From assembly GCA_019454045.1 (NCBI GenBank), contig SKCR01017726.1:107370-171369 (forward strand): a DNA stretch of 64,000 nucleotides. Reading direction: 5' to 3'. The position numbers and the translations under genes are program-made. The notes under the pieces were generated by a model that was not told the origin of the DNA, did no database searches, and saw only the letters and a program-made list of their open reading frames with translations. The stretch is from Zanthoxylum bungeanum. Lineage: Eukaryota > Streptophyta > Magnoliopsida > Sapindales > Rutaceae. Below, piece after piece: positions 30,946-64,000 of the stretch (position 1 is its first letter; each line of letters begins with the position of its first letter).

Positions 30946-33553
30946 TATTGGGGTTGGTGCTCAGAGCGCCAATCCGGACCGTATTTATGTCCGATTCATG
31001 AATATGAACAATCCATTTTTCCATAATATTACTTATTTATGGTTGCACCTCTTGTTTTTATATACGTATTCGATCTGATTACGATTAGATTGAAACTAAA
31101 TGTTGTTTAGTGATATGTATATATTAGACAAAGGCCCGATAATATATAATGCAATACACAGTTACAAAGTTAGTTTGTAATTGACATTGGGAAGTGTCAC
31201 TGCTAAATGTATATTATCAAATACTGTTCCTGGTCAAGATTCACTAACACGGGTCGATTATTCAAATCTGTTGAGACCAGTACATGTCGTATATCGAGAC
31301 TTGGTCCAATGGTTTATCCCAATGAACCATGAGTCTAGGGAGACTCATATAGACATGTACCTTATAATGGATAAACACTGAACGACTCACCGAAGATTCT
31401 TAATGGATGGTACACCAACGTCAATAAGAATTTTCTCGGGTTGAGTAGCATAGTTGTCCTTCGACTTGAGATACCACTGCGGATGTATGAGACATCCTCC
31501 AAACTTAGATGACAGTCACATCACCGATCTATTTAGATCAGACCTCCACATGTTCGTTAGGTGTGGACCGATCCTCAGGATATCCTGTGTGTATCAAGAT
31601 ATGATCCGTCAGTTCTGTGTACATGGCATAGGTAGTCCATATGTGATTGCAATCAGTTAAATCTATGGCCATAGTATACTTCGGAAGTGAGTTCCGAATG
31701 TTATTTATAGATTGCTAATAGAATCGTCGACGGGATAATACCTATAGAGATTTGACGTTTACATATATATCTCTGGGATTATCCGGATACCTGTGAAGGA
31801 GGGATTATACGTATGCAATGACCACGACCTGTATGATTCATCTAGTTTATCCGTGGTCGTCATAATTTACGGGTGGGTAAATTATTGACACGAAATTGGA
31901 TTTTGTGACAGATATATCTGAATCTAGAGTCTCACTAATGAAATATACTCGTAGAGCACTAGGGCGACTTTTATAAATAATGGTGATTATTTATAAATCA
32001 TTTAAACGTTAAACGAAAAATACATGCAAATGGGCCGAACCGTCATTTCCCAATTAATGTGTATTTGTATTTAATATATGATATTATTAAATACACATTA
32101 ATAAATTTTCAAACAAAGGTATTTGACATATATCATTTATATATGTATTTAAGATATTTAAAGTAAATATAATACATATATTTGAGATATTTGTATTTAA
32201 TTAATTATTTAATTGTTAAATAATTAATATAATTAAAATATAAATATCTTACCAAATGATATTTATGGGAAATGATTAACAAGTGTTTTTTGTTGACTTT
32301 TTCATTAAAAGAAAAGGTTATCAAAATGGTTTTGATAACTTAGATATTTGTTTTTAATTTGTTAAATAATTGAAATATCTTTTTTTTTATGGTATTTTCG
32401 GCCACACCCTTTATATATAAAGTGTTATATTTTTTTATGGTATTTTCAGCCACACCCTTTATATATAAGTTTAACCTAGTTCTAAGCCTCCAAAATAAGC
32501 ATAAGAAGTTAGAGAGAAAAAGTGAAGAACTTTGAAGAACACCAAAGAAAGCAAATGATTTAGTAAGTATTTCCACTTTGCTATTAGAGGGAAATTTGTT
32601 CCTTTTGTTCTAGGCTATAACATAGCTTGTTCTTAAGTTTTTATAATCCTTCTTGTTTATGTTTTGAGTGTTGGAAGTTTTGAACATGGGTGTTTGCATG
32701 TATGATAGTTAAAGAAAGCTTATAAGTTGTTATTAAGCATTCTTTTGGTCATTTGATGATCTAGTTGCCATTCTAGAGTTGTTGGGCCACTCATTGATGA
32801 CCTATAATTCTTCTAGAGTTATTTCAAAGTGGTGAGACTTGTTTGGTGTGGTAGAGACTTGATTGAAACATTGGATTTGTTTAATTTGGTTTAATTTGAT
32901 GAATTTGAAAAATTATGGTTTATACCTTTTTCCAAATTTGGGGTTTTTCATATATGTGTTGTGTAATGATGTATATATGATTTATATCAAGTTTTGTGAT
33001 GATTGGATTTCATCTTGACTTGTTTTGAACAAGATTGGACCAAAATACATAAATTGGAAACCTTAGGCCCTTCTCGGTAATTTTAGGTTTTTGTGGGATT
33101 TAAGTTGCAATTTGTATTCTCATGTATTGTACATGTTGGAAATAATTTTAGAACTGATTTGGAATCACCTAAAATTGTATTTGACAATTTGGGGACTAAA
33201 ATGAACAAAATGCAAACTATGGGACCTTTCGGCAATTTATAAGAAATTGTTGTTTAATGTTGCAAATCTGATTTTGATGTATTGGATATGTTGGAAATCA
33301 TTTTAGAAGTGATTTAGAATCATCCAAAACTGTATTTGACAATTTATGGACTAAAATGATAAATTTGTAAAGTTTTGGGGCAATTCGGTAATTACCAAGA
33401 AATATGATTTCTTGTGTAATTTTTCAGAATTTGATAATTGGATAATTAAATAAATAAGTTTATTTGTTTAATCCGAGAAAAATTTTGAAATCGGAAAATT
33501 TGATTTTCCGCGTTTCCGCTGCGTTACCGATATTCCTCTTTAAAACCCCAACA
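30946..33553 (+). repeat. 3' LTR of D
   Basis: Starts TATTGGGG (TG changed to TA) and ends AACCCCAACA. It lacks the PIF element, so it records the empty site. Compared with the 5' LTR it has two small gains: a duplication of a TATA-containing segment near 32390-32470, and about 50 bp near 32780-32815 bounded by repeats of TTCTAGAGTT. Confidence 0.9.
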
Positions 33554-36258: not shown

Positions 36259-36263
36259 ATGTC

Positions 36264-36305
36264 TGCCTAAACTGTGGCAAACGGGGTCACTGGAAGCGTG
36301 ACTGC
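36264..36305 (+). pseudogene. gag zinc knuckle of B, motif intact
   Basis: CLNCGKRGHWKRDC fits C-x2-C-x4-H-x4-C exactly: C 36264, C 36273, H 36288, C 36303. It is the nucleocapsid knuckle of copia gag. The frame around it is broken, so it marks gag's end rather than a working protein. Confidence 0.88.
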
Positions 36306-38176
36306 CGTATGGACAAGGCAGACATGAAGGAAGTGAAGACGGACAAGGGTCCGACTTCAGGTATGTTTCTTATAAACATGTCCACTGCTGGTTTTAAAAT
36401 TAGATTTTAGATACTGGATGTGGTGCATAAATATATGTACTGATGTGCGGGATCTACTGATTAGCAGGAGATGGCTTCATTTGAGATCGACCTATGAGTC
36501 GGAAACAGGACATGAGTCGTTGTTTTGGCCGTAGAAACCTAAGTTTTGGAACTGCCATTTGGGCATGTACTTAAATTAGGAGACTGTTATAATGTATCTA
36601 GTTTGACTATGAACATTATCTCTGTATCTAGTTTAACTCATTGCGGGTATACCTTTATTTCCATAATACTAGATGTTTTGTTTATAAAGATGATATTGAG
36701 ATATACACATTAGATGTGAATAACAATATTTATATTTAGAATATAAATGAATCTCAAACATATAATATGATAAACAAAAGCTCAAACTTATAAATCTGTT
36801 GAGACTTAAAAGTGGCATTTTTGTCTGGGACACATTAACAAGACTCGTATATCCACACTTTCGAAGAGTGGATGCTAGGACGGATTCGATTCTAATTCAA
36901 ATGATGTCTACGAATCTAGTTTATTAGGCAACGTGCCTAAAACACATTTTACTTGGTAAAAGTGCAAGTGCCACCAATCTATTAGCCCTCGTTCATAGTG
37001 ACGTAAGTGGGCCCATGTCTAGCTAGGCTAGAGGTGGATTTGAATACTTCGTAACCTTTACGGATGTGGCATTGCGTTACAGTTATGTGTATCTTTTGAA
37101 ACACAAGTCGGAAACTTTTGAGTAATTTTAAGAGTTTCGACATGAAGTAGAAAACAGATTAGCAAAAGTATTAAAAACATTACGGTCAGACCATAGTGTA
37201 AAATACTTAAACATATAAGTTTCAAGATTACTTTAAAGAGTATGGTGTTCTTTCACAGTGGACTCCTCACGGGACACCTCAATTTGACGGTGTGTCCAAA
37301 CAGAGAAACTGAACTTTGTTGGACATGGTAAGGTTAATGATGAGTCGCTCTGAGATACCAATTTCCTTCACGGGATACACATTAAACAGTGCAATACTTA
37401 TTTTGAATAAGGTTCCATGAAAATCTGTTAAACAGACTTCATATTAGATATGAACAGGAAAGAAACCAGGTTTCTCATTCCTGAAGATTTGGGAATGCTG
37501 GGCATACGCTAAATGTTTGGATGGTACCAAACTAGAACCCAAATCTGATAAGTGCCTATTTGTAGGTTGTCATAGGGAAACCAAAGTATAGTACTTATAC
37601 AACTCACAAGAGAACAATGTAATTGTTGCTCTCCATGCGGTTTTCCTAAGAGGAATTCCTATATGCCGTGGTAAGTGGGAGGAAAGTAAAACTCGATGAA
37701 AATCAGAGTAATACTATTCCAGGCACCGAGTCCTCACGGAACACCAACAGTTCATCAGGGACGAAACTGTACCAATAATCTTCGAATACACAAGAACCGC
37801 GTAGGTCGGAGAGAGTCAGAAAACAACCTGGGGGGTATGGGTTTCTCATCTCACCTCATGTAGATATCAATCTTATTGAGGAAGACTAACCGGCTACGTA
37901 TGAGGAAGTGATACAAGGTATCGACTCCTTTTATAACAATGTGCAATGAAGTCCGAAATGGATTCCATGAATACCAACTAAGTTTGGACACTGGTTGATG
38001 TACCAGAAGGCATTGTGCCTATTGGTACTACATATGTCTTCAAGGAAGACATACATGGATGGCAACATACAAATGTACACAACTAGGCTTGTACAGAAAG
38101 GGTATCATCAACGACATAGTGTCGACTAAGACAAAACTTTTTCACTTGTTGCCATGATTAAATCCATTTGGATAAT
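36306..38176 (+). pseudogene. Dead pol of B, first part (protease, integrase, RT start)
   Basis: Protease appears as a damaged ILDTG-type segment near 36405-36425. The pre-integrase and integrase follow (WHF..LGHINKTRI near 36815; HSDVSGP and FVTFTDVA near 36995-37075). A C-terminal integrase piece near 37230-37310 (QWTPHGTPQFDGVS) is missing from A. RT starts near 37495, with FVGC and VIVALHAVFLRGIP. Around 38040-38170 the RT words VQKGY, SVDYD and MIKSI are readable. E interrupts at 38177. Confidence 0.85.
38172..38176. repeat. Target-site duplication of E, left copy
   Basis: ATAAT, repeated exactly at 45526-45530. The RT reading of B resumes across it. Confidence 0.95.
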
Positions 38177-38682
38177 TGTAGGCACTGCATTTTTGCATAT
38201 AAGTCCCTATGATGAGTCTCATTTGGAGACACTACCTTTTAAGTCACGGAGGTCACGGAAAACGGACATCGGAAGGGGAAATTCATAATGAACAAGGTTC
38301 ACTGTTTTCGTTCGTGCTACGTTCGTGTATACTTTCGAACGCCAAACAGATTGCGGGCGTTCGTGCCGCGTTCGAAGAGGCTTTCGAACGGTGTCGGTAA
38401 TTCTGGTTTTGCTGCTAGCCTCACATCAAGCCCAATTTGCCCAAGCCTTGGCCCACACGCCCAAGGCCACTTAAAACACATATTTAACACATGGTGAAAT
38501 AAAAAAAAATCTAAAAATCACATACCAAATTAAAATAAACATTAAAATCAATCAAATATCTTAACTCCCTAATTAAGATATTCACCCCCCAATTACACAA
38601 GATTCCTTCCTTTCATAAACCAATCAAAATATCTCCCTTATTTACTTGATTCCCTTCCTTACCTAGAAACCCTAGCCTTTGC

Positions 38683-38690
38683 CTATAAAA
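38683..38690 (+). promoter_or_regulatory. TATA box in the 5' LTR of E
   Basis: CTATAAAA in a pyrimidine-rich setting, followed about 30 bp on by a C/T-rich start region. The same signal is at 43643-43650 in the 3' LTR. Probably the element promoter. Confidence 0.65.
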
Positions 38691-39774
38691 AGAACCATTC
38701 ACCACCCTCCTCTAGGCTAGCTCATTCACACATATTCACACAAAGAAAAAAAGCCTATCCATTCACACCTAATATACTCAAGAAACAACCTAGAATTTTC
38801 CTCTCCTCCTCCTCCCTTTCCACCGAAAACAACACTCCCCATAAACACTCTCCATAACTGAAAATCACAGCCCCTATACAGCCCCCATAACCTCCAAAAA
38901 TCGCAGCCCTTTAGCCCTTAAAGACACCCAAGAACAGTAGCCTAAATTCAGCAAACATAGTGACCAGAAAATGTCACCGGAATAGCAACGAAAAACAGTA
39001 AAATCAACAACAAAAGATGGAGAACGACGACTCAAAACAGTAAGACAACGAACGAGAGCAGTGAACGAGTGAACCGGAAGAGTTGCGGAACATCCACCCT
39101 TCCGACGATCGTGTACCGTACATCCGAGAGGTGATTTAAAAGGTTAGACCTGATGGCACTTTTCTCATTAGTTTATATTCGTCTTTTGATTGTTTATTGA
39201 ATTCTATTCGCATGAGAGTCGTTTGTGGATGCATGTTGTGGCTTGAATGAAATGGAAAATGTGTCGCCTCTTGTGGTATATAGGATGGAAACCCGGACAT
39301 AAATTTTATAGCCGATTCTTAATGGACGGTAGTATGATATGTACTCGGGATACAACTCCACGTACCACTTGAGTAAACGGCACATTCTTTTATTTATGTT
39401 GCTTCGATTTATTTATTTTTCGTTATTTGAATTCTGCATGTTAATTTTGTATGTATGATACAATCGAGCGCATGGGCTTAGTAAGTCGGATTAAAGGTCC
39501 CCTATTTGGAGGGGTTAAAATCCTTTACCATGATGCTTTGCCGCGCCGATTAACGTATATTCGGTTGAATGTAAGATGTGTTCAATCGGGTATACGAAGT
39601 CTAAGGTTATTGTCTTTATTTTTATATGCATTGAGATAAGCGCATGGGCTTAGTAAGTGCGATGAAAGGTCCTCTAATTGAAGAGGTTAAAATCCTTTGC
39701 CACGATGCTTCGCCGCGCCTCGTATTTCGCTATTTTCTTTTTATGTATGTATTGCGTCACATTTTATGTATCAG

Positions 39775-39995
39775 GTCTGTTCCCGTTCGAACGTGTTATC
39801 GAACGCTATACGAACGTGAACCTTCTATTTCCCGTTCGAACGTGTTTTACAAACGCTACTCGAACGCGTATGCATTTTGTATCATCAGGTCTGGTACAGT
39901 TCGAACGTGTTATCAAACGCTACATGAACGCGAACCTTCTGTTTACCGTTCGAACGCGTTTACAAACGCTACACGAACGCGCACACACTGAACTA
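39775..39995 (+). repeat. TTCGAACG palindrome repeats in the E LTR
   Basis: Four units of about 55 bp, each with GTTCGAACG followed by an ACGAACGC-type inverted word, so each can fold. The 3' LTR has the matching set at 44740-44945. Confidence 0.85.
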
Positions 39996-40564
39996 AGTCT
40001 GTCTCATCATATTTCATGCATAATTGCCTTTTGGGTGATCTCTCTTGTATTATGTAGCCAGTCATATTATTTGTATTCCTGTATTTATCCATTCGATGTG
40101 TTCTTGGGATGATATTCAAGCATGATTAGGCTGTTAGCATGTTATTTGGTTAATATGTCCATGAGATAGTACTCAAGCATGATGAGGTTGTTCTTAGTTT
40201 TCCCTATCATATGATTGAGAAATGTTCATGAGATTGCCATGTGATGTTGTATGTTGTGATGATTAATTTCATGTATGTGGATTTAGAAGCATGATACTCT
40301 TGGAAATAAGTGTTACTTAGGCCTGATTAATTATTACACAAATCCTTTCATTACAAGTGACATAAGTAAGGGACCATTCTGAACCCAACGGTTTGAGGTC
40401 TTCCATTGCGAGGGGTGAGTGCGGCCTTAAATCTCATTTTCCCGGTTCACACCGGGTGGCGACTCTATTATTCTCCGGTTTAGTCCCTCGTGGCTACTCC
40501 GTACTCCCAACCGGGCCGCGAGCCCGGGACAGCATGCGTCGCCTAGTTCCTGTGTCCCACAGTC

Positions 40565-40582
40565 TGGCGACTCCACTGGGGA
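40565..40582 (+). other. Primer-binding site of E
   Basis: TGGCGACTCCACTGGGGA follows the LTR after 3 bp. This form is known from plant Ty3/gypsy elements of the Tat/Ogre kind. The primer tRNA is not asserted here. Confidence 0.8.
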
Positions 40583-41940
40583 TAGAGAATCGGCCCCGAA
40601 ATATTGTCTTGTAATGTTTGGATTTATGTTTGAATTGACCGTGTCTATAATGGATAAAATATGGGTTTAATCAAAGGCATTTTAAGGCTAGGTAATGGTT
40701 TGGTGTCTTCCTTCATTCACTACCTTTCTAGAATGAAAAGCTGTGAAGGCACCTATATAGCCATCTACTCGTAGCCTATTGTGATGGACTAATTTGGAGG
40801 ACTCATTGTTTATTCCTGACACCAAGCGATAAGAGCCTAAGAGGCTTGGGTATTTAAGTGAGCTTCGCTCCACCTTCCCTCTGGGGAATCTACAACGGGA
40901 AATCCATTTGACAGTCAGTCACACACCATAACTCATTGGCACGTACCTTAGTGTATAAAAAAGGGTGCGCTCACTTGGTCGCTCGAACCCTTGATTGGGG
41001 AGACCTAGTTGTGGGCCATCCTTCGCCGATGAGAGCCTTTGTCTACACTCTTGTGAACCCACCCATAGACCGGGGTTGTATGGTTAAAGTAACAATTATT
41101 TCCTTGAGTATGTGCTTGTGGACCATCCTCATTTGGATGCAGTTGGACCATTGTCAGAAATGCGGACTTGCTGGGCCATTTAAACTGGGGCGAGTTCGTA
41201 CCTTATGACCATTGGGCCCAAAGCTTCTGAAATGTTGATGGGCCATTCTGTAGAAATTATTGTTGTATGTTTGCATTATCTTTCTTTTATGCTTGTGTTT
41301 GGGAACATCGCCGTTTGGATCCATTTGGACCATTTGTCATGGGATATGGGCTTGTTGGGCCATTTAAACTGGGACAAGAACGTATTTTATGACGATTGGG
41401 CCAAAGGCTTCTAAGTGTTGATGGGCCACTTTATGCTTGTGTTTAGGAACATTATCATTTGGATACGATTGGGCTCCTTGCCATGAGATGTGAACTCGTT
41501 GGGCCATTTAAACTGGGACGCGTTCACTCCTATGAGAGTTAGCCCAAAAGCTTCTAAAATGATGCTGAGCCGATTTGTGTGAAAATTTTAATGAGTTGAT
41601 ATTTTTCTTGTATCGCATGCATCTCATGCATCACATGCACCTCATGCATACATGTACCATGTTAACCCTATTTTGTCTTGAAAGCCATCATAGATACCCG
41701 TTGGTTAGGGAAGAGGACAGACTTGTCAAAAGACCGAGCAGCCACCAAGAAAACTGGCAGAAGACCTAGCCCAACGGGATAGGAAACTCAATCATGCATG
41801 CATGCATACACGTAACATATTTGCATCCTTTTTGTGTTTGTTCTGTTTTGTAATAACAAATTTCAAAGGAGAAAAAAAGAAAATATCAAATGCAAGCCAA
41901 CCAGAAGCAGCAACAGTATAATGACAGCAGTCTTCAGGAA
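40583..41940 (+). other. Leader of E with three degenerate ~145-185-bp repeats
   Basis: No gene is seen. Between about 41090 and 41570 a unit marked by GGGCCATTTAAACTGGG recurs at about 41176, 41359 and 41503. Near 41684 the bases GCCATCATAGATACCCGTTG match the start of the F segment seen on - at 64000. They probably mark the junction where coding sequence was lost from E. Confidence 0.7.
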
Positions 41941-41944
41941 TGAA

Positions 41945-42480
41945 TCACAGGGGTGAGGCCCATATCAGTACCAGTCTGGGGGTGAGGCCCACGTCAGTAT
42001 CAGTTTGGGGATGAGTCCCAGGGCCGAGGCCCACATCCGTATCAGTTTGGGGATGAGTCCTGAGGGTCGAGGCCCACATCAGTATCAGCTAGGGGCAAGA
42101 CCCATATCAATATCAGTTGGGGCGAGGCCAGCGTCAGTATCAGTTAGGGGGTGAGGCCCACATCAGTACCAGTTTGGGGCGAGGCCCACATCAGTAACAG
42201 TGTTGGGGCGAGGCCCACATCAGTTTAAGGGCAATGCCCACATCAGCATCAACCTGGGGGCGAAGCCCATATCAGTATCAGCATGGGGGCGAAGCTCATA
42301 TCAGTATCAGTCTGGGGGCGAGGCCCACATCCTTATCAGCATCAGTCTGGCCGGGTATGGCACTCTGGGGGCGAGGCCCACATCCTTATTAGCATCAGTC
42401 TAGCCGGGTATGGCACTCTAAGGGCGAGGCCCACATTAACATCAGATCAATTTTACCAGGTACGACACTCCGGGTATGGA
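41945..42480 (+). repeat. Tandem repeats of E, ~28-36-bp family
   Basis: Copies of a unit containing GGGGCGAGGCCCACATCAGT and ATCAGT, irregular in length. The same family, in the same orientation relative to the element, forms 59925-60840 in F. GGTATGGCACTC-type words appear from 42350. Confidence 0.92.
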
Positions 42481-43000
42481 GATACATAATCAGTTTTGCC
42501 AGGAATGACACTCTAAGAATGGAAGCACAGTTCGAGAATGAACAAGCCGGGAATGGCACTCCAAGAATGGAAACACAGTTCGAGAATGAACAAGCCGGGA
42601 ATGACACTCCAAGAATGGAAGCATAGTTCGAGAATGAACAAGCCGGGAATGGCACTCCAAGATTGGAAACACAGTTCGGGAATGAACAAGCCGAGAATGA
42701 CAATCCAAGAATGGAGCAAAGTTCGAGAATGAACAAGCCAAGAATGGCGATCCAAGAATGGAGTATAGTTCAAGAATGAACAAGCCGAGAATGGCAATCA
42801 AAGAATGGAACAAGTCGAGAATGGAAATCCAAGAATGGAGCAGAGTTTGAGAATGAACAAGCCGATAATGGCACTCCAGGAATGGAAACAGGTTCGGGAA
42901 TGGACCGCATCACAGTAACGGTTCGAGAATGGACCACCTCTTATCGAAACGGTCCGAAAATGGACCACCTCTCCTCAACTTGGTTCGAGAATGGACCACC
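42481..43000 (+). repeat. Tandem repeats of E, ~59-bp family
   Basis: Units contain GAGAATGAACAAGCC and GAATGGCACTCCAAGAATGG. They are regular from 42530 to 42720, then shorter and more diverged to about 43000. The open frames across them in several phases are by-products. Confidence 0.92.
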
Positions 43001-43121
43001 TCACAACAAAATCGACGCAACACAACAGTAAGTTAAGCAACAGCTGGCGAGCCAGGTAAGTGAAAATGCATTGCATAACTTTGATATGATTGTCACTGTT
43101 ACACATTACACAAGTCCCATC

Positions 43122-43135
43122 AAAGTGGGGGCGAC
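43122..43135 (+). other. Polypurine tract of E
   Basis: AAAGTGGGGGCGAC directly precedes the 3' LTR. F has the same tract on - at 58860-58878. Confidence 0.85.
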
Positions 43136-45525
43136 TGTAGGCACTGAATTTTTGCATATAAGTCCCTATGATGAGTCTCATTTGGAGACACTACCTTTTA
43201 AGTCATGGAGGTCACGGAAAACGGACATCGGAAGGGGAAATTCATAATGAACAAGGTTCACTGTTTTCATTCGTGCTAAGTTCGTGTATACGTTTGAACG
43301 CCAAACAGATTGCGGGCGTTCGTGCCGCGTTAGAAGAGGAGTTCGAACGGTGTTGGTAATTTTGGTTTTGCTGCGAGCCTCACATCAAGCCCAATTAGCC
43401 CAAGCCTTGGCCCACACGCCCAAGCCCACTTAAAACACATATTTAACACACATGGTGAAATCAAAAAAATCTAAAAATCACATACCAAATTAAAATAAAC
43501 ATTAAAATCAATCAAATATCTTAACTCCCTAATTAAGATATTCACCCCCCAATTACACAAGATTCCTTCCTTTCATAAACCAATCAAAATATCTCCCTTA
43601 TTTACTTGATTCCCTTCCTTACCTAGAAACCCTAGCCTTTGCCTATAAAAAGAACCATTCACCACCCTCCTCTAGGCTAGCTCATTCACACATATTCACA
43701 TAAAGAAAAAAAAGCCTCTCCATTCACACCTAATATACTCAAGAAACAACCTAGAATTTTCCTCTCCTCCTCCTCCCTTTCCACCGAAAACAACACTCCC
43801 CATAAACACTCTCCATAACTGAAAATCACAGCCCCTATACAGCCCCAATAACCTCCAAAAATCGCAGCCCTTTAGTCCTTAAAGACACCCAAGAACAGTA
43901 GCCTAAATTCAGCAAACATAGTGACCAGAAAATGTCACCGGAAGAGCAGCGAAATACAGTAAAAACAACAGTAAAAGATGGAGAACGATGACTCAAAACA
44001 GTAAGACAACGAACGAGAGCAGTGAACCAGTGAACCGGAAGAGTTGCGGAGCATCCACCCTTCCGACGATCGTGTACCGTACATCCGAGAGGTGATTTAA
44101 AAGGTTAGACCTGAGGGAACTTTTCTCATTAGTTTATATTCGTCTTTTGATTGTTTATTGAATTCTATTCGCATGAGAGTCGTTTGTGGATGCATGTTGT
44201 GGCTTGAATGAAATGGAAAATGTGTCGCCTCTTGTGGTATATAGGATGGAAACCCGGACATAAATTTTATAGCCGATTCTTAATGGACGGTAGTATGATC
44301 TGTACTCGGGATACAACTCCACGTACCACTTGAGTAAACGGCACATTCTTTTGTTTTATGTTGCTTCGATTTATTTATTTTTCGTTATTTGAATTCTGCA
44401 TGTTAATTTTGTATGTATGATACAATCGAGCGCATGGGCTTAGTAAGTCGGATTAAAGGTCCCCTATTTGGAGGGGTTAAAATCCTTTACCACGATGCTT
44501 TGCCGCGCCGATTAACGTATATTCGGTTGAATGTAAGATGTGTTCAATCGGGTATACGAAGTCTAAGGTTATTGCATTTATTTTTATATGCATTGAGATA
44601 AGCGCATGGGCTTAGTAAGTGCGATGAAAGCTCCTCTAATTGAAGAGGTTAAAATCCTTTGCCACGCTTTGCTTCGCCGCGCCTCGTATTTTGATATTTG
44701 CATTTTATGTATGTATTGCGTCACATTTTATGCATCAGGTCTATTCCCATTCGAACGCGTTATCCAACGCTATACGAACGCGAACCTTCTGTTTTCCGTT
44801 AGAACGCGTTTTACAAACGCTAATCGAACGCGTATGCATTTTGTATCATCAGGTTTGGTACTGTTCGAACGCGTTATCAAATGCTACACGAATTCGAACC
44901 TTCTATTTACCGTTCGAACGCGTTTACGAACGCTACACGAACGCGCACACACTGAACTAAGTCTGTCTCATCATATTTCATGCATAATTGCCTTTTGGGT
45001 GATCTCTCTTGTATTATGTAGCCAATCATATTATTTGTATTCCTGCATTTATCCATTCGATGTGTTCTTGGGATGATATTCAAGCATGATTAGGCTGTTA
45101 GCATGTTATTTGGTTAATATGTCCATGAGATAGTACTCAAGCATGATGAGGTGTTCTTAGTTTTCCCTATCATATGATTGAGAAATGTTCATGAGATTGT
45201 CATGTGATGTTGTATGTTGTGATGATTAATTTCATGCATGTGGATTTAGAAGCATGATACTCTTGGAAATAAGTGTTACTTAGGCCTGATTAAATTATTA
45301 CACAAATCCTTTCATTACAAGTGACATAAGTAATGGACCATTCCGAACCCAACGGTTTGAGGTCTTCCATTGCGAGGGGTGAGTGCGGCCTTAAATCTCA
45401 TTTTCCCGGTTCACACCTGGTGGCGACTCCATTATTCTCTGGTTCAGTCCCCCGTGGCTACTCCGTACTCCCAACCTGGTCGCGAGCCCGGGACAACATG
45501 CGTCACCCAGTTCCTGTGTCCCACA
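43136..45525 (+). repeat. 3' LTR of E
   Basis: 2390 bp, nearly identical to 38177-40561, ending CCCACA, with TATA at 43643-43650. A 152-codon frame that begins here and runs into B (45370-45828) is an accident of the insertion. Confidence 0.95.
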
Positions 45526-46623
45526 ATAATGCTTGCTACTGTTGCATATTTCATTTATGAAATATGGCACATGGACGTCAAAACCGCTTTCCTTAACGGA
45601 AACCTTTTGGAGGATGTTTATCAACATCCTGACGGTTTTGTCATACCCAAACATGCGAACAAGGTTTGCAAGTTAAATCGATCCATTTATGGATTGAAGC
45701 AAACATTTTGTTATTGGAACCAACAATTTGATGAGATCATAATGGTATATGATTTCATTCAAAACGAATATGATTCTTGTGTATATAAGAAGGTTAGTGG
45801 GAGTGCACTGACAATGAATGTCCTATAAGTTGATGATGTATTGCTTCTTAGCAATAACATTCCCATAAAATAATCGGTGAAAGCATGGCTTTCATTAAAA
45901 TTCTCCATGGAATACCTGGGAGAAACAGACTTTATTCTAAGAATAAAGATCTACTGGGATAGATCTAGAAAGCTGCTAACAACCCTCCCAGAGCTCGTAC
46001 ATTTTTGAAATGTATATGACCTGTTGTCTCATATGCTTTGAGCATATGTAGACGCTATAAGGCCAATCTAGGTAATGGTCACTGGATTGATGTAAAGAAC
46101 ATCATTGAGTATCTTAGACGAACTAAGGATGCTTTATTAATTTGTGGAGAATAAGAACTTGAGGTGACTAGGTTCACCGCTGCAAGTTTCCAAACCGACA
46201 AAGACGACTTTAAGTCGCAATAAGGGTACATATTTAGTTTGAATAACGGAACAATGAGCTGGGAATCTTCCAAGCAAGATACTGTTGCCGAATAAATAAT
46301 AAAAGCGGAACATTGCTGCAGTTGAGGCAGCAAAAGAAGCATTTTGGATCTATATAATCCTAATTGGATTAGGTATAGTTCTGTTAGCAGCTGAGCTAGG
46401 CTACAACACAGGCTAAGGAACCACGGTCTCATCAATGATCTAAGTATGTATTTTGACTAATTCATCTGATTCGTTCGATCATACATTGTGGCGATGTGAT
46501 GATCGAATAAAACGCATCAGATGATAACATTGCAAATTCGCTGACGAAAACCGTTTCTCAGCAGAAGTTTGAGCGACCCGTACATAGTTCAGGTGTAGGA
46601 CACTTGTGTGATTGTCTATAGGC
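45526..46623 (+). pseudogene. Dead pol of B, second part (RT core and RNase H)
   Basis: RT resumes after E: YEIWHMDVKTAFLNG, then VYQHPDGFV, KLNRSIYGLKQ and FDEIIMVYDF, all standard copia RT. At the polymerase catalytic YVDD the tyrosine codon is TAA (45826-45828), leaving stop-VDD. RNase H words follow near 46180-46380 (FTAASFQTD, SWESSKQDTVAE), with stops and frameshifts shared with A. This stretch is missing in A between 5330 and 5340. Confidence 0.9.
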
Positions 46624-46635
46624 CAAGTGGGAAAT
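46624..46635 (+). other. Polypurine tract of B
   Basis: CAAGTGGGAAAT just before the 3' LTR. Confidence 0.8.
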
Positions 46636-48585
46636 TGTTGGACAATTATGACCAATAGCATCACTAGTTGTACAGAACATGGTGTTGTTGTACAAATTAA
46701 CTATGTGACAAAGGAAATTGCTCTTTTATCATTTGTAATTGGATTACCGAGATATATAAATGATAAAAGTCCATATGATTAGTACCAGATTAATAAGATA
46801 TGAGACAGTATTAATCCACGTAAGGTTTAATCATTAAATATCCCTAGTCGTAGTATTATCGAGACTGGACATCGATAATGCGAAATAGACTAGTATTACA
46901 CTTGTGCGTGTTATGGAAACGTAACGACATAGTTCTCATATATTTGGATATTGGATACTCATGCAAGTGTAATAGGAAGTTCTATTTATCGATGGTACAG
47001 AAACAGCTTCGCTCTGGATAGACCATCGGAATCGCATTGGTAGTATGACTATGTGTAAATGGGAATCCGAATCAGGGTAGGTGTATTTGGTCTTATCCTG
47101 AGACTTGCATCGCTAATACTTGCGACAATCAGTATACTTTGGTTTTGATCGTCCGGGGCTTTAACAGGTTCTGTGTATGCCTCTTCTGGGTATACTGAGA
47201 ATTGTAGTGTATTGGGTGTGATGTCAAGATGGAAGTATCACTTCAGTCATATGGAGATGATGATCACGTAGGATACCGAACTAGTACTCTTAAGTACTGC
47301 AGTCATCGGGATAATATGACTAGGTCATGATTATTCGATTATAGAGACTAGTTACCAGAGATCCGATATATGCTTCGTACGGGGCAGACACAATTCCAGC
47401 CCTAGGCCTAGCATGTGATATCGATACTAGATCGTTATACGCAATAGTTAGTATACTACGCCTGTTATAAATTATATATTCCTTAAAGAATATTTCTGGA
47501 GAATTGGGTAGGCACCGCGCTTTGCTAGAAGCCAACCATGTCTTGTAAATCAGTAAGAATGTGGTACAGGGTACGCACATGTTCGGCGGCCGGATTTACT
47601 GCCAATATATCCAGGGATCTCATGGGTCGCTTCCCGAAGATTCACCGATGACGTATGACTCGAGCATAATTAATCTAGGATTAATTATGAGAGAGAGAAA
47701 ATTAATCTATGATTAATTATGGCGAGAATTTATCTGGGATAAAATTCGATTAGAAGAGAGAGAACAATTAATTTGGAATTAATCGAATAAAATAATATAT
47801 TCGATATATTAAATGAAATTGGATTTCAAAGCGGAATTAAAATTGGATTTTAATTCGGGCAAACGAATTGATTTAGAATTAATTCGAGAGCGACTTTCGT
47901 AATAATTTTACGAGGCATTATTATTTAATTAAATTTGATTTAATTAAGTCGCAACGAAAAATTCGTTAATTCGGAATTAACGAACCCGAGCCCGAGCGAA
48001 GTTGCGCGTTGAGATTGTTCGACGTAAATTTGGAATTTACAAGTGGTGGGACCCACTTGACTTACATCACAAGTTTGACATGTGATGGAAGTTGTTTTAG
48101 CTTGAGTGTAAAACTTGCTTTGCTTGTTTTTTACTCAATACAATCTCAACACACTTTGTATTTGTTTATTCATTTTTTGAATGACTAATACCAAATCTTG
48201 GATTTGGTATATCATGTTTTTGATTTTAGAAGTCAAACACACAACACAACAATTGCAACATCTCTCTCTCTCAACCACCAAAGCCGAGAGCCTCTCTTCT
48301 CCCCTTAGAAATTTTGTTTCAAAATTTCTTCTTGCTAGCACATCAATGGAGTCTACAAAAGTATTAGGGAAACTATCCCCTTGAGTTTGGAATTCAAAGA
48401 TTCAAGCTTGGAGCTAAACCATTCATACAAAGAGGAGCTTGAAGCACTACCCAAAGGAGCAAAATTTTGTTATCTACACATCCATATAGCCGATCAAAGT
48501 GAGTATCCTTTCCGCAACTTACTTTGTTAATTTACACAAATTTTATGCTTAATATATCATTGGCATGTTCTAGGAGAACCCAACA
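46636..48585 (+). repeat. 3' LTR of B
   Basis: 1950 bp, starting TGTTGGACAATT and ending CCCAACA, with TATATAAA at 46753-46760. Differences from the 5' LTR are scattered substitutions and small indels. The 3-nt-loop palindromes at 47660-48060 are present in both. Confidence 0.95.
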
Positions 48586-52059: not shown

Positions 52060-53924
52060 CATAACACTCTAGAATGGAAACATGTCATCAAATGAACAAA
52101 TTGGATACTAATTACACTAATTCCATCCAATACACTTCACACATGCTTCATTAGCTTCCAATCCATCATCAACAACCAAAAGCCCCAATTTTTCAGAATT
52201 GAATGAACCCTAGAACCTTTCTAAATCATCAAGAAACAAGAAACTAAATTTCCAAGCTTAGGGTTTTGAAGAATTACCTTAAATCTCATAAATAATTAGC
52301 CTTTTTTTTTTCTTGATTTTCCTTTATTTCTTCATGGTTTCTTTAAACCAAAATTGAGAGCCTTTTTATGGGGTTTTGGTCGGCCAGTGATGATGAATAA
52401 AAGAAGAAGAAAACATTTCCCTTTTTAAAACTGCATTGCAGTCATTTAGGGGTATTATGGTCATTTTTTGTAATTTAATCTAATTAAATTATATTAAGCT
52501 TTTTGGTGGCCAATCAAATTCACACACATTTAGCTTAATAAAAACATGCCATGTGTTTAAATAATAATTAAACATATTTCATAACAATTATGAAAAAAGT
52601 TTATCAATTAATTATTCAAATATTTTACAATTAAATATCTAAATAATTAATTAATATAATTATTATTATATATGTATTTTATTTACATTAAATAACAAAT
52701 ACATATATTAATGGCATGTGTCAAAAACTCATTTGATAAATAATTAATATGTATCAAATCAAATTTTGTATAAAATACAAATACATATTAATTATTATTG
52801 ACAAAAATGCCCTTATGTATGTGTTATCGTTTAACCGATTAAACGATTTGAATTAACTCATTTAATCCGATGAAGTATTATGAATAATCCATATTATTCA
52901 TATTGCGTTGCCCAAGTTCTCAATGAGTACACTTCATATTGTGAGACTCTCCAAGTTTAGGTTTATCCGTCACGAAATCTAATTTCGTGTCCATAATTCA
53001 CCCACTCATGAATTATGACGACCACGAATAATCTCGCTAAACTATACAAGCCAAGGTAATTGCATACGTATAATCCATCCGTCATAGGCTATCCATATTA
53101 TACCTGAGATATAGATGAGAATGTCAAATCTGTTCGATATAATATAGTCGACTTTCAATTTACGATCTCTAAATAACACTCGGAATTGATTTCCGAAATT
53201 ATACCACGGCCATGGATTTACTAGATCGTAAACACATGAGGATGCTTATGCGCTGTACACAGGACTGACGGATCCTATCTTGATACGCACTTGATATCAT
53301 GAGCATTAATGAACATGCGGAGGTCTGATCATGAATAGATCAGTGACGTGACTGCCATCTAAGTGTAGAGGATAACTCAAAAATCCTACTGTGGTATCTC
53401 AAGTCAAAGGACCACTATCCTCGCTCAACTCGTGAAGATTCCTATTGACGTTTGTGTACCATCTATTAGGAAATATTCAGTGAGTCGTTCAGTGTCTTAT
53501 CAAATAAACATCTACATGTAAATATGAGTCTCCCGAGACTCATGTATCATTGGTATAAACCATCAAACCAAGTCAAGATATACGACATGTAGTCTCAGCG
53601 GATTTTACTAACCAACCCGTGTTAGTAAATCTTGACCAGGAGCTTTATTTAAGGATATACATCTTATAGTGCGCTTCCCAATGTCAATTACAAACTACGT
53701 TGTAACTGCACACTATATTGTAAATCCTAGTGTCTTTGTCTAATATACACGTATCACTAAATCAGATTTAGTTTCGATCTAATCATAATCATATATCTAA
53801 TCGTAATTAGATCGAATAAGTGTATAAAAGACAAGGGTGCTACCATTAAATTAGTAATATTATGGAAAATATAATTGCTCGTATTTATGAATCAGACATA
53901 AATACGATCCGGATTGGCACTCCG
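52060..53924 (-). repeat. Diverged D-type LTR H, truncated
   Basis: On - the sequence from 53924 aligns with the start of the D LTR (GCCAATCCGGA, then the AATTGACATTGGGAAG block and the ACTGAACGACTCACTGAA block). It differs at roughly one base in five or more by eye. It lacks the terminal TGTTGGGGTTGGTGCT and begins CGGAGTGCC. Its other end is cut at 52059 by element C, so the rest should lie beyond C. No gene is present. Confidence 0.8.
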
Positions 53925-55855
53925 TGTTGGTTTTATTCTAGGTCCCAAGATCATCAAACAAGCATGAAGATGTGTGAAATACATATCAAAGAAGTTGCGG
54001 AACACTTACATTGATCGGTTGAGACGAAACAACGAACAAAACTTCAAGTTTTGGTCATTCAAAGTGGCGCCCACTGCATGCAGTCCACAGCTCAAAATTT
54101 CAGTTTTGAGTCTTCAAGAATCCAAGATTTCGAGCTCCAATCTTCGTCAAACGATTCCCGGCTCGTGGGTGGGTTTCCCTAACACCTTCGTATAACTCTC
54201 GGTGTGCTAGCACTTGTCTATTTTGCCACAAAACATGCCCAAAAATCCATCATCATTCACGCCCAAGCAGTGCAGTCCACTGCCTTTGGGCGTGAACTAG
54301 GTAGAGAGAAAGAGATGGGATTTGTGATTTTAGGTTAAGGGAAAAGGTGTCCAACACTTTACTTATATATTTTCCAAATAATACTAAAGCATTTACCATT
54401 TATTTTATGCCTTTTAAAAACAATAAAACTAATGTAAATGTTTATTTAATTCTTTTACCCTTGGTAAAAGGTGAAAAGGAAAAGCATTTCACTTTTCCAA
54501 AAAGTCAAAATCTTTTCCCCCCAAAATTTTCCCCCAAAATCTCAAAGGTCAAAGTCAAAGAGTCAAAGTTACTTTTCCAAAAAGTGTTTTGACTTTTATG
54601 ACTTGCGATGTGATTTGCGATGCGACTTGCGGCACGTGATTCAAAATCGACGTAACTTCGCAAACACATTCCGAGCTCGGTTTCGATATTTCTAAATTAA
54701 CGATTTTCTCGATGCCTCGTTAATAAATCCAATTTACTAATCACGTCGCTCGAGAATTAATTCTAAATTAATTCAAGTGCCCGAATTAAAATCTAATTTT
54801 AATTCCTAATCGAAATCCAATTTCGTTTAATATATCGAATATATTATTTATCGATTAATTCCAAATTAATCGTTCTCTCTTTAAATTGATATTTTATCCT
54901 AGATAAAATATCTCCGTAATTAATCCCAGATTAATTTTCTCTCTCTTCAAATTAATCCCAGATTAATATATAATGCGAGTCATACGTCATCGGTGTATCA
55001 TTGGGAAGCGACCCATGAGATCTCCTGATATGTTGGCAGTAAATTCGGTCGTCGGACTATCCGAACACGTAAGTACCAAGTATTACGTTTTACCAATTTA
55101 CAAGACAAGGTTGGCCTCTAGCAAAGCGCCATGCCTACCCAATTCTCCGGAAATATCCTTACAGGAATATGTGATCTATATCAGGCGTAGTATACGTAGT
55201 ATTGCGTATTTCGATCCAGTATCGGATGATCACGTGCTAGGCCTGAGGCTGGATATGTGTCTGCCCCGTACGAAGCACATGTCGGATGTCTGGTAACTAG
55301 TCTCTATAATCGGATATACATGACCGAGTCATAATATCCCGATAGCTGCGCAGCATATAAGAGCACTAATACCGTATCCTACGTGACCATCTTCTCCATA
55401 TGACTGGAGTGACACTTCCGTCTTGACATCACACCCAATACACTACGATTCTCAATATACCCAGCATCGGCGTACACAGAACCTGTTAAAGCCCTGGACG
55501 ACCTCAACTAAAGTACATTGATTGTCGCAAGTATTAGCGGTGCAAGTCTCAGGTTAAGACCAAATACACCTACCCTGATTGCAGACTCCCATAGACACAA
55601 GGTCATACTACCAATGAGATTCTGCGGTGGTCTAACCCAGAGCGAAGCTGTTTCCCGTACCATCGGAGAAACACAACCTTCTATTACACTTGTCTGAGTA
55701 TCCTATACCCAGATATACGAGAACTATGCCGTTATGTCTCACATAACACGCACAAGTGTAATACTAGTCTTTTACGCATCTATCGATGTCCAATCTCGAC
55801 AATGCTCTGACTAGGGATGTTTAATGATTTATCCTTCATTGATTGATACTGTCTC
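53925..55855 (-). repeat. Diverged A/B-type LTR G, interrupted by F
   Basis: On - the end AATAAAACCAACA is at 53925. The sequence aligns with the A and B LTRs in reverse through the CATACGTCATCGGTG, CGTAC GGGGCAGACAC and GCGAAGCTGTTTC blocks. By comparison with B about 170 bp of its start are missing, and they should appear to the right of F. Its hairpin block (54700-54970) keeps 3-nt-loop palindromes although many bases differ. Confidence 0.85.
55851..55855. repeat. Probable target-site duplication of F, left copy
   Basis: GTCTC lies directly before the LTR start at 55856. The partner copy is outside the window. Confidence 0.5.
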
Positions 55856-58859: not shown

Positions 58860-58878
58860 GTCGCCCCCACTTTGATGA
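58860..58878 (-). other. Polypurine tract of F
   Basis: On - it reads CATCAAAGTGGGGGCGAC directly before the LTR, identical in core to that of E. It shows that the LTR at 55856-58859 is the 3' one. Confidence 0.85.
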
Positions 58879-59439: not shown

Positions 59440-59830
59440 TCGGAGTGCCATTTTCGGCATCTGTTGTGTGTGCTCCATTTTGGAGCGCCATTTTCGGCAT
59501 CTGATGAGTGTGCCTTATTTTGGAGCGCCATTTTCGGCATCTGTTTTGTGTGCCCCATTTTGGAGCGCCATTTTCGGCATCTGATGAGTGTGCCCTATTT
59601 TGGAGCGCCATTTTCGGCGCCTGTTTTGTGTGCCCTATTTTGGAGCGCCATTTTCAGCTTCTGATGAGTGTGCCCCATTTTGGAGCGCCATTTTCGGCAT
59701 CTGTTTTGTGTGCCCCATTTTGGAGCGCCATTTTCGGCATCTGATGAGTGTGCCCCTTTTTGGAGCGCCATTTTCGGCATCTGTTTTGTGTGCCCCATTT
59801 TGGAGCGCCATTTTCGGCATCTGTTGCTTG
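59440..59830 (-). repeat. Tandem repeats of F, 40-bp units in alternating 80-bp pairs
   Basis: About ten units carry TTTTGGAGCGCCATTTTCGG. Two unit types alternate, one with CTGTTTTGTGTGCC and one with CTGATGAGTGTGCC, giving an 80-bp higher-order period. On - the word GAAAATGGCGCTCCAAAATGG resembles GAGAATGGCACTCCAAGAATGG-type units of E. Confidence 0.93.
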
Positions 59831-59924
59831 ATGAGATGATTTTACCGCTACAATCGTGCGAACAAAATAAAAATTGTATGTATGTGATATGTATGCATGT
59901 ATGCATTGATGCATGATGCTGATG

Positions 59925-60840
59925 TGGGCCTCGCCCCAAACTGATACTGATATGGGCCTCGCCCCAAGCTGATACTGATGTGGGCCTCGACCCCAAACTG
60001 ATACGGATATGGGCCTCGCCCCACACTAATACTGATATGGGCCTCGCCCCCAGACTGATATTGAAATGGGCCTCGCCCCAGACTGATACTGATGTGGGCC
60101 TCGCCTCCAGACTGATACTGATATGGGCCTCGCCCCAAGTGATACTGATATGGGCCTCGCCCCAACTGATACTCATGTGGGCCTTGCCCCAAACTGATAC
60201 TGATATGGGCCTCGCCCCAACTGATACTGATATGGGCCTCGCCCCCAGACTGATACTGATATGGGCGTCGCCCCCAGACTGATACTGATGTGGCCTCGCC
60301 CCAGACTGATATATGGGCCTCGCCCCCAGACGGATACTGATATGGGCCTCGCCCCAAACTGATAATGATATGGGCCTCGCCCCCTGCTGATACTGATATG
60401 GGCCTCGCCCCAAACTGATACTGATGTGATATAGGCCTCGGCCCAAACTGATACTGATATGGGCCTCGCCCCAAACTGATACTGATATGGGCCTCGCCCC
60501 AAACTGATACTGATATGGGCCTCGCCCAAAACTGATACTGATATGGGCCTCGCCCCAGACTGATATATGGGCCTCGCCCCAGAGGATACTGATATGGGCC
60601 TCGCCCCAAACTGATACTGATATGGGCCTCGCCCCCTGCTGATACTGATATGGGCCTCGCCCCAAACTGATACTGATGTGATGTAGGCCTCGGCCAAAAC
60701 TGATACTGATATGGGCCTCGCCCCAAACTGATACTGATATGGGCCTCGCCCCCAGACTGATACTGATATGGGCCTCGCCCCCAGACTGAACTGATGTGGG
60801 CCTCGCCCCAAACTGATATTGAACTGATGTGGGCCTCGCC
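59925..60840 (-). repeat. Tandem repeats of F, 28-bp family
   Basis: About 30 copies of a 28-bp unit with TGATATGGGCCTCGCCCC and the spacer AAACTGATAC. A longer period of about 254 bp (nine units) is visible: the segment starting TGATATATGGGCC near 60307 repeats from 60561, including the variants CCCCCTGCTG and TAGGCCTCGGCC. Open frames of up to 442 codons cross the block in more than one phase and are not genes. Confidence 0.95.
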
Positions 60841-61045
60841 CAGAAGGCCATACCCGGCAAAACTGATACTGTGTCTCCATACCCGGAGTGCCGTACCTGG
60901 CAAAACCGATATTGTGTCTCCATACCCGGAGTGCCGTACCCGACGATACTGATACTGATGTGATGTGGGCCTCGCCCCTAGAATGCCATACCTGGCGAAA
61001 CTGATAGTGGTGTGGGCCTCAACCCGCAGAGTGCCGTACACGGCA
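60841..61045 (-). repeat. Tandem repeats of F, ACCCGGAGTGCCGTACC family
   Basis: Three to four copies of a ~45-bp unit with CATACCCGGAGTGCCGTACC, with two 28-bp-type words mixed in. E has the complementary-sense counterpart at 42350-42520. Confidence 0.88.
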
Positions 61046-61955
61046 AAGATTGATAATGATGCAAATGATTTATTTCAACATACTATATTGCTCTCCTCGA
61101 GACAATCTTAATAGCTAAACATATTTTCGTCCTCAACGAATGCTTTGTGTCAAAACCAGAGAACCTTCAAAGTACTTGATACACTCAATTTCGATTGTCT
61201 GAATGGGTGATCTGAACTAGACTCATAGTGTGTGGGTGCGCTAAGGCTCTTTCGCAGCTTGTTCCTTAAGTGGGTCAACTTGGTGATTTCGTTTCAGAGA
61301 ATCGAACCAGTGGGTCTAACCAACCTGGATGTCTTAATCACATTCTGTGATTACTTCAACATACTCAACATGATATGGTTTTCATCTTTTTTCTTTTTTC
61401 TCCTTCTTTTCATTTTGAATTATCTTTTTTTTCTTTTTTTTCTTTTTTTTCTCTTTTTTTTCTGACACACCTACCCTTTAAGGTAGCATTTCTCCTCATG
61501 GTGGTCCTAATACTCGCCCATCGGTAGCTTCACGTTTATCGGTTATAGGTGGTCTATATTTTTTTTCTTTTTCTTTTTTATCTCAGAGACTTTTTCTTTA
61601 TTTCCAACCATATCATATATCATAGCGTCGGTAAACAAGTGTGGACACCCAGGCAAACGGTCATTCACTAATACATCATCTCTTCAACTAGTCACCTCGA
61701 TAACTACTCAGGCTTCTACTGCTAGGGTCCCGTAATTAAGTGCTCGTGAGTCTAACTCAGATCAATCCATTCAGAATACCGGAAGAGAGCGTGTCTCGCA
61801 CTTATCGTTTCTAGGGTTTCCCCATACAGCATTCAACGTCATCACAGGACATATGTCTAACTATCAAAGACTTCTCTTACTCAAATTCTTTTTTTTTCAT
61901 TTTTATTATTTTTTATTCAAATAACACAAAATAAACAAGATAGTAATACAGAAGA
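61046..61955 (-). other. Non-coding stretch downstream of the LOG-like gene
   Basis: No frame or known motif was found. T/C-rich runs lie at 61380-61465, 61555-61600 and 61885-61920; on - these are purine runs. It would contain the 3' UTR of the LOG-like gene if that is transcribed separately. Confidence 0.5.
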
Positions 61956-62609
61956 CTAGAGGTTAAGATCCAGATTCAGTTTACGCTTTTTACCACGATC
62001 GTCCTCGGACCATTTGATCTCGGAAATGATAGGGTCCACATGCGGTTCAAAGGCCAAGATTTGGTCAATTAAATCCTGGGCAGTTCTGGCTGTGAAAAGG
62101 AGTTCGTTCACAGGTTTTGTTACGAACCCATTCCTTCGGTTGTCTTCAAGAAACACATAAAGAAAATCATAAAATCCATCAACGTTAAACAATCCAAGAG
62201 GTTTCTGGTGTATGTTTAGGTTCGCCCAAGATAACACTATAAGCATTTCCTCCAACGTGCCCAAACCTCCTGGTAGAGCAATAAAGGAATCTGCACGGTT
62301 AATCATTTCCACCAGTCGCTCTGACATTCCCGGCACGAGCAATTCTTCTCCGTTCGATGGTCCTATCAGATTCGCCTCCGCCAAAGGCTTTGGGATGATT
62401 CCCAGAACTGGACTGCCTCCGTCACGTACAGCCTTTGAAATAATTCCCATCAGTCCAAGATTGCCTCCACCGTATATTAAGTGCATATTCCGTTCAGCAA
62501 TGACTCGACCCAATTCTTGTGCTGCCTCTATGTATTGCGGTTTAGTACCCACACTGGTACCGCAAAACACACAAATTGTTTCGACTCGTCTTCTTGAAGT
62601 GGCTTCCAT
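61956..62609 (-). CDS. LOG-like cytokinin riboside 5'-monophosphate phosphoribohydrolase, retrotransposon-borne
   Basis: The 217-residue uninterrupted frame matches the whole LONELY GUY (LOG) family, usually 210-230 residues. These cytosolic/nuclear enzymes release active cytokinin bases from nucleoside monophosphates. Visible motifs are CVFCGTS (13-19), YGGGNLGLMG (46-55), GIIPK (70-74), GMSERLVEM with Arg98 (94-102), the signature PGGLGTLEE with Glu121 (113-121) and KPLGLFNVDGFYD (about 135-147). The family motif MHxRKxxM reads MSERLVEM, so His and Lys are changed; activity is uncertain. The last 11 residues, KKRKLNLDLNL, combine a basic patch with an LxLxL EAR-like repeat not typical of LOG enzymes. 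Plant LOG genes have several introns and this copy has none, which suggests capture through RNA. The start is the first ATG (GAAAATGGAA context). It lies in sense between the integrase tail and the 3' repeats of F. Confidence 0.93.
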   Translation of the reverse strand: MEATSRRRVETICVFCGTSVGTKPQYIEAAQELGRVIAERNMHLIYGGGNLGLMGIISKAVRDGGSPVLGIIPKPLAEANLIGPSNGEELLVPGMSERLVEMINRADSFIALPGGLGTLEEMLIVLSWANLNIHQKPLGLFNVDGFYDFLYVFLEDNRRNGFVTKPVNELLFTARTAQDLIDQILAFEPHVDPIISEIKWSEDDRGKKRKLNLDLNL

Positions 62610-62665: not shown

Positions 62666-62674
62666 AATTTATAG
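62666..62674 (-). promoter_or_regulatory. TATA-like box upstream of the LOG-like gene
   Basis: On - CTATAAATT lies about 57-65 bp before the start codon, leaving a leader of about 30 nt if it is used. The position suits a pol II core promoter, but the region is AT-rich and chance is possible. Confidence 0.4.
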
Positions 62675-62910: not shown

Positions 62911-63629
62911 CAAGAAGGCAAATCAAAGCAATAATTAAAGCAAATGAATTGTGTACTCAGCACGCCTCTTGCTTGGCATAAGTTCATTAGGATGCGTCTC
63001 ATGAATTCTTCTTTTTCTCTGCCACCACTAATGAATTAGCTCTCATTTTCGTGATTGCCAAGCACCATCCCATCTGTCTTAAAATGCTATGTCTTTGCTT
63101 TTACCTAACAAAATAACACACAAAATTAAAAATTCTATGACATGTATACACAAAACATGAAAACAGAAATCACAACAAAGTGCATGGGTTGCCTCCCTGT
63201 TAGCACTAAATTCATCGTCTTCAACCAGACATGACCGAAATCCATCTGTCAAGGTGGCTTCAATGTCATCCTCAGTGCTTGTGTCCCCTTTTGATCTTTG
63301 CCGCTTTCTTTTTCTTTTTCTTTTTCTTTTTTTTTTAAAACCTGCGAATACAAAACAACAGAATAAAGATGTGTGCATGTAATGTATACGTATGCAAGTA
63401 TAGAGGTCCTCCCTGTTCATGATGGGTGACCCTCATTGTGCTCCTCGGCGCCATATGTCTCTGGTCGTCCCTTGCTAGTTCTCTCTTTCTGTTTAAAACC
63501 TGCAAACATAGGACAAACAGAAGAATTGCAAGTACGTTACGTGTATGCATGTATGCATGGATGAATTTCCTATCACGTTGGGTTAGGTCTTCCGCCAATT
63601 CTTTTGGTGACTGCTCAGTCTTCTCTCCC
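62911..63629 (-). other. Spacer between the integrase tail and the LOG-like gene
   Basis: No convincing gene. It contains a TGGGTTGCCTCCC word (63185-63200) seen in 3' regions of plant gypsy elements. It also contains two copies (63335-63410 and 63495-63570) of a module that on - runs from TGCATACGTATAC-type sequence to TTTGCAGGTTTTAAA. Two more copies are at 59390 and 59845. A lysine/arginine-rich frame at 63079-63420 is a product of an AAAG-type run. Confidence 0.55.
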
Positions 63630-64000
63630 TCAGGCTAAATACATCTTCAGTCTGTTAACATTGATCGGCTCGGTGAACTCATTCTCTTTTAAGTCTGACA
63701 GTTTTACTGCTCTGTTTCCCAATTTCTGAATGGCTATCCTGTCTTTTCTGCTTGCTTCTTCCGAGGATTCCCTGATGGTCTTTCCATTCTGATTGTACAA
63801 CTTTCTGTTATCGGCTATACCGGGTACGGTCAAACTGGCTGCAACATTAGTCAGAACTTGCAACATCTCAATAATTTCAGTTACTTTAATCTCTAATTGA
63901 TCCAGGCGAGATCTTTCATTTACTAACTAGCTCATGTTGATTGACGGTCTCTTGACTAGTCTCTCTGCTTTCCTAACCCAACGGGAATCTATGATGGCTT
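63630..64000 (-). pseudogene. Gag-like start joined to integrase C-terminal tail of F
   Basis: The - frame ends QKLGNRAVKLSDLKENEF then EPINVNRLKMYLA, which resembles the end of gypsy integrase (AVKL-L...PIN...LK-YY). Upstream in the same frame, to the window edge, are AIIDSRWVRKAERLVKRP and a short helical segment LDQLEIKVTEIIEMLQVLT, interrupted by one stop near 63930. The AIID segment also occurs in E at 41684, close to its leader. So the frame looks like a leader/gag start fused to the integrase end with everything between deleted. It could instead be simply a late pol fragment if the match to E is misleading. Confidence 0.55.

Follow-up and report, generated by a model that had tools for sequence, protein, structure and literature searches.

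The window analysed here, a stretch of 64,000 nucleotides of Zanthoxylum bungeanum DNA, carries on its minus strand an uninterrupted frame of the LONELY GUY (LOG) family, whose coding part without the stop codon occupies positions 62609-61959 (Table 1). The protein matches the Pfam profile Lysine_decarbox (PF03641) with an E-value of 2.2e-33, the entire profile being covered, its best solved relative is AtLOG3 (PDB 2a33; E 1.1e-55, residues 5-203), and it carries PGGLGTLEE together with Arg98 and Glu121. The Lysine_decarbox domain and PGGxGTxxE with the catalytic Arg and Glu assign it to the LOG family (type I), a match which is far beyond chance. That a complete LOG-family frame of 217 codons without a stop lies here, as the first-pass annotation had claimed, is thus agreed upon by the profile, the solved relative and the motif residues. 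The AlphaFold2 model of the protein, which has a mean pLDDT of 86.2 and values below 50 at residues 1-5, 204-208 and 210-217, predicts a LOG fold, and its top structural matches are LOG crystal structures, the best being 2a33_B (TM-score 0.94 by target length, 47% identity).

Table 1. Positions of the LOG-derived frame, its carrying element and the LOG-less sibling in the window
Feature	Position	Strand	Remarks
LOG-derived frame, intronless	62609..61956	-	217 codons and stop, no internal stop
C-terminal tail KKRKLNLDLNL	61959..61991	-	basic cluster, then LxLxL (EAR-like); from the letters and column conservation
TATAAAT box	62667..62673	-	64 bp upstream of the LOG ATG; candidate promoter of the gene's own
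Upstream flank of LOG	63510..63622	-	83% identity to sibling 41730-41844
98-aa open frame	63630..63926	-	"integrase tail" of the first-pass annotation, unconfirmed; motif likeness
Farther upstream flank of LOG	63945..64000	-	86% identity to sibling 41682-41736
28-bp and 43-bp tandem repeats downstream of LOG	59907..61060	-	common to sibling 41950-42531
40-bp tandem repeat array	59442..59826	-	
Polypurine tract (PPT) AAAGTGGGGGCGAC	58860..58873	-	directly before the 3' LTR
3' LTR of the LOG-carrying element	58859-55856	-	3004 bp, TG..CA; ends via sibling comparison
Sibling element without LOG	38177-45525	+	complete; LTRs 38177-40561 and 43136-45525

Sequence comparison within the window indicates that the LOG gene almost certainly resides in an LTR retrotransposon. 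The sibling element has LTRs of about 2.39 kb that are 96% identical to each other, and the target site duplication ATAAT is found on both of its sides. Because the ends of its LTR match 58859-58753 and 56099-55864, and its PPT region matches 58974-58860, the 3' LTR of the LOG-carrying element can be placed as in Table 1; the TG..CA ends of this LTR and the PPT before it are those of an LTR retrotransposon. The window ends, at 64000, before the 5' LTR of the LOG-carrying element is reached, and a target site duplication is seen for the sibling only. The position of LOG inside the element follows from the sequence on either side of it, which matches the internal region of the sibling, and the stretch from 63509 to about 61068, LOG included, has no match in that region. 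The order of the repeat blocks downstream differs between the two elements. The proposal of the first-pass annotation that LOG lies in sense within an LTR element is therefore upheld by a sibling that lacks the gene but has the LTR ends, the PPT and the repeats in common with its carrier and matches the sequence on either side of it, and flanks of host DNA, which had been named as the finding that would speak against it, were looked for and not found, since both flanks match the sibling.

The one candidate for Pol sequence of the LOG-carrying element within the window is the 98-aa frame, which has no retroelement match in Pfam; its earlier label of an integrase tail goes back to a likeness of motifs and was not confirmed. 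Of the sequence surrounding this frame, about 320 bp are missing from the sibling (41730-41736 against 63944-63623), and the 7-bp overlap at the joint suggests a microhomology deletion. Just after the 5' LTR of the sibling, TGGCGACTCCACTGGGGA at 40565-40582 presumably resembles a tRNA-Arg primer site. A large LTR and tandem arrays are traits described for non-chromoviruses (PMC6317226, in excerpt), and by analogy those of the LOG-carrying element would fit this group; for the RT, RH and INT domains that mark the Ty3/gypsy OTA superclade, this element offers in the window only the 98-aa frame.

Elsewhere in the window, large diverged copies of shared repeats, about 71-98% identical, occupy 1-8391, 15495-22765, 30948-38176, 46001-48583 and 52600-55855; one of them received the sibling as an insertion, and another borders on the LTR of the LOG-carrying element, the repeat beyond this LTR having further copies in the window at 18537-19637, 46802-47894 and, in part, 6122-7078. 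Directly after the sibling LTR come about 475 bp (45526-46000) that have no counterpart in the repeat at 5318, which otherwise runs parallel, and since the copia RVT_2 match of a frame at 45361-45828 starts at residue 56 (about 45526; 7e-21) within this extra sequence, a piece of copia reverse transcriptase is lodged there. There are also a 293-aa open gag fragment at 13899-14780 (minus strand; Retrotrans_gag, 3.1e-09) and a 214-aa open frame at 23760-24404 (minus strand) with the C-terminal domain of At2g29880 (1.4e-23).

Relatives were gathered in two protein searches, with the window protein (best 120 of 4746) and with the relative P0055 (best 120 of 7739) as queries. Among the matches listed there were 172 distinct relatives, of which the 144 with 205-260 aa were counted and 28 shorter or longer ones were left out; they were compared as proteins, and their residence in elements is presumed. 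Their named sources among the matches listed are Populus species, Xanthoceras, Reevesia, Diplodiscus and Parasponia, their identity to the window protein reaches down to about 50%, and some belong to clusters of 29 (P0268), 39 (P0115) and 205 (P0119) members, sizes that would fit mobile copies. The host set was taken from a search with AtLOG3 (best 120 of 7998), in which 113 proteins fell within 205-260 aa, mostly LOG1/LOG3/LOG4-like where named; as a control it covers the list nearest AtLOG3 and one LOG8 fragment, the other LOG groups lying outside it. In a 118-row tree of 95 relatives, the window protein, 21 host proteins and one bacterial protein, the relatives are separated from the host proteins with support 99/95, and the Populus relatives P0042 and P0064, each 53% identical to the window protein, stand on its side. 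PGGxGTxxE was tried as a separator of the two groups and discarded, being present in 121/144 relatives and 101/113 host proteins among the matches listed. Scans of viral contigs with the window protein and with an alignment matched 7 and 36 stretches, respectively, none of which was a LOG relative. The Xanthoceras gene models P0013, P0020 and P0034 each comprise two LOG units, the second being whole or partial, possibly through annotation joins of neighbouring copies.

What sets the window protein apart from host LOGs is firstly its substrate pocket. For CgLOG, a prenyl site of Met96, His97, Lys100, Glu125 and Trp129 has been proposed, which its authors call speculative; Lys100 also contacts adenine, Arg99 and Glu122 are given as catalytic, and activity is nearly abolished when residues that bind AMP or act in catalysis are changed to alanine, with the exception of S19A (PMC4979012, in excerpt). 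In the window protein, whose numbering is one below that of CgLOG (5its alignment, 9-182 to 10-183), the corresponding residues are M95, S96, R98, L99, E121, I124 and W128, so that Met95 and Trp128 of the proposed prenyl site are kept and the full set is broken by H96S, K99L and E124I. His96, Lys99 and Glu124 are invariant in all 113 host LOGs among the matches listed and are the same in AtLOG8 and P. aeruginosa LOG. Among the relatives listed, all three are kept in 11/144 and all three lost in 101/144, Lys99 and Glu124 are replaced in 133/144, and Arg98 and Glu121 are both kept in 127/144, one or the other being lost in the remaining 17. A 63-row tree was made of the 11 relatives with an intact pocket, 36 of the 133 others hand-picked for spread, the window protein, 14 host proteins and one bacterial protein; the 37 pocket-lost rows form a single clade in it (98/92), with a small circularity in that the scored pocket sites belong to the alignment, and P0055, which has both the tail and an intact pocket, stands next outside this clade. 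For the window copy taken alone, the excess of changes in the pocket is not significant (3/5 pocket sites vs 14/62 of the remaining sites that are universally conserved; Fisher p 0.10), and the case for pocket loss is hence one of family pattern.

Secondly, the protein ends in a tail whose basic cluster and LxLxL may be a nuclear localization signal (NLS) and an EAR motif, respectively. LxLxL within the last 12 residues is found in 119/144 relatives vs 0/113 host LOGs near AtLOG3, and a basic cluster in the last 20 residues in 134/144 vs 1/113, among the matches listed; the first list of relatives on its own gives 76/94 and 89/94 among its matches. Leucine stands at positions 211, 213, 215 and 217 in 123, 125, 125 and 125 of the 144 relatives listed, and in the linker (202-206) the commonest residue is present in only 42 to 78 of them. 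The sequence LNLDLNL near the terminus of the window protein agrees with the EAR pattern, and the basic cluster can be read as a putative NLS-like signal; LxLxL is, as a piece of sequence, a short motif, which limits the weight of the EAR reading. The motif is absent in 25/144 relatives among the matches listed, including 10 of the 11 with an intact pocket, so that the order of events, tail before pocket loss, depends on the single relative P0055. The annotation had proposed a cytokinin-activating enzyme, and Arg98/Glu121 and PGGLGTLEE do stand, with His96, Lys99 and Glu124 replaced. Because the substrate pocket is changed and the tail resembles a nuclear repressor tag, production of cytokinin is doubtful, and the sequence suggests that the window protein may well no longer make it.

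It is possible that the gene has a promoter of its own at the TATAAAT box. In the read-through leaders of P0008 and P0009, YKFS precedes the Met homologous to the LOG start by 22 codons, as counted by eye; this would agree with TATAAATT in nearly the position of the TATAAAT box. Xanthoceras P0241 and P0244 also have YKFS upstream, at a shorter distance. TATAAAT occurs 28 times on the LOG-bearing strand of the window, which makes the argument from it a weak one.

We consider it probable, with some reserve, that this is a kept accessory protein of an LTR retrotransposon, re-purposed from LOG for a function that we infer from its sequence features; re-purposing is favoured over hormone activation because the pocket is lost with the catalytic residues kept and a basic/LxLxL tail is present. 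A LOG gene would have been captured as an extra gene by an LTR retrotransposon of the kind reported from Citrus and Populus and kept as a complete frame. It might be transcribed as a separate message from the TATA promoter within the element, the basic cluster might carry the protein into the nucleus, where LxLxL could recruit a co-repressor of the TOPLESS type, and the body of the protein, derived from LOG, might bind or hydrolyse a nucleotide other than a cytokinin precursor; any benefit would lie in replication of the element or in its evasion of silencing and not in hormone production. These steps jointly, that is own promoter, nuclear entry, TOPLESS, another nucleotide and benefit to the element, are put forward tentatively. 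Rather more doubtful is the full history, in which a clade of elements took LOG, gained the basic/EAR tail while the pocket was whole, then lost the pocket and kept a nuclear factor with a nucleotide-binding or hydrolysing body, a TOPLESS-recruiting tail and its own promoter, acting on host silencing or on transcription of the element.

A functional cytokinin-activating enzyme on the element, raising active cytokinin in the cells that express it, is unlikely. The lysine equivalent to Lys99 is an adenine contact in CgLOG, whose AMP-binding residues are needed for activity (PMC4979012, in excerpt). In the window protein Lys99 is replaced, and so are His96 and Glu124; Lys99 and Glu124 are replaced in 133 of the 144 relatives among the matches listed. 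Since LOGs with identical critical residues differ in activity, sequence predicts LOG activity poorly (PMC11593424, in excerpt), which leaves some room for an active enzyme, as do the full-length frame with PGGxGTxxE, Arg98 and Glu121 kept, the predicted fold, which is that of AtLOG3, and the 11 of 144 listed relatives in which the whole pocket is kept.

We regard it as quite improbable that the gene is a passenger, a captured host gene carried without use, whose frame would have stayed open owing to the recent origin of the copy. Retrotransposons are well known to capture genes, and the sibling does without LOG. However, an unused gene would be expected to decay, and relatives of about 50% identity keep the length (exactly 217 aa in 96/144), the catalytic pair (127/144) and the tail leucines among the matches listed. 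A host LOG gene beside element fragments by chance is scarcely credible: annotation does treat Populus relatives as host genes (LOGL10), but here both sides match the internal region of the sibling and are followed by PPT and LTR, a comparison that makes mere element debris unlikely, and the window LOG falls outside the sampled host LOG clade.

The abstract of Steinbauerova's 2011 study reportedly mentions a similarity to LOGL4 in two Athila-like elements. Consensus sequences of Ty3/gypsy elements have been reported to contain a YgdH (LONELY GUY) domain in Citrus sinensis, C. clementina and Populus trichocarpa when the filter used in PMC9289625 is switched off, in agreement with Steinbauerova 2011 as cited there (PMC9289625, in excerpt). 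The novelty that the first-pass annotation saw in a LOG-carrying retrotransposon has thus been overtaken, and a new kind of element is ruled out by this publication. In the literature searched, PMC9289625 alone presents LONELY GUY as an element-borne gene; PMC8087826 and PMC11670757 contain both kinds of term, with no tie between them in the excerpts. Neither the basic/LxLxL tail nor the disappearance of the proposed cytokinin pocket from a protein that retains its catalytic residues was met in the literature searched, and these appear to be the new points here.

Extra genes are common in plant retrotransposons, and most are without known domains (PMC9289625, PMC6317226, both in excerpt). The LOG family has solved structures, which permit a stepwise test of host-like pocket, EAR-like tail and pocket loss. 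If the tail works, retrotransposons of several plants encode their own repressor-recruiting protein, and if the pocket change is what it seems, Populus proteins that now go under the name LOGL10 may turn out not to be cytokinin enzymes.

With AtLOG3 and AtLOG8 the window protein has in common the fold, the catalytic Arg/Glu and PGGxGTxxE; it differs in the replaced His/Lys/Glu of the prenyl pocket, the basic and LxLxL tail and its location in an element, and its frame is intronless, whereas plant LOG genes, according to the first-pass annotation, contain introns. In the M. marinum LOG (MmLOG) the proposed prenyl site is likewise different from that of plant LOGs, with the catalytic pair kept (PMC4979012, in excerpt). 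However, the replacements in this bacterial protein are not those of the window protein. Moreover, we know of no basic/LxLxL tail in MmLOG. The YgdH elements of Citrus and Populus, which are of gypsy type as the present one may be, are like it in being plant LTR elements with an extra gene of the LOG family, and what the excerpts of PMC9289625 give for them is the presence of the domain, with no discussion of pocket, tail or promoter. The AlkB-carrying gypsy elements of Phalaenopsis resemble the LOG-carrying element, itself a putative gypsy element, in their large size and in the extra gene for an enzyme of host type, but the enzyme is a different one, and its demethylase activity has been shown in vitro (PMC9289625, in excerpt).
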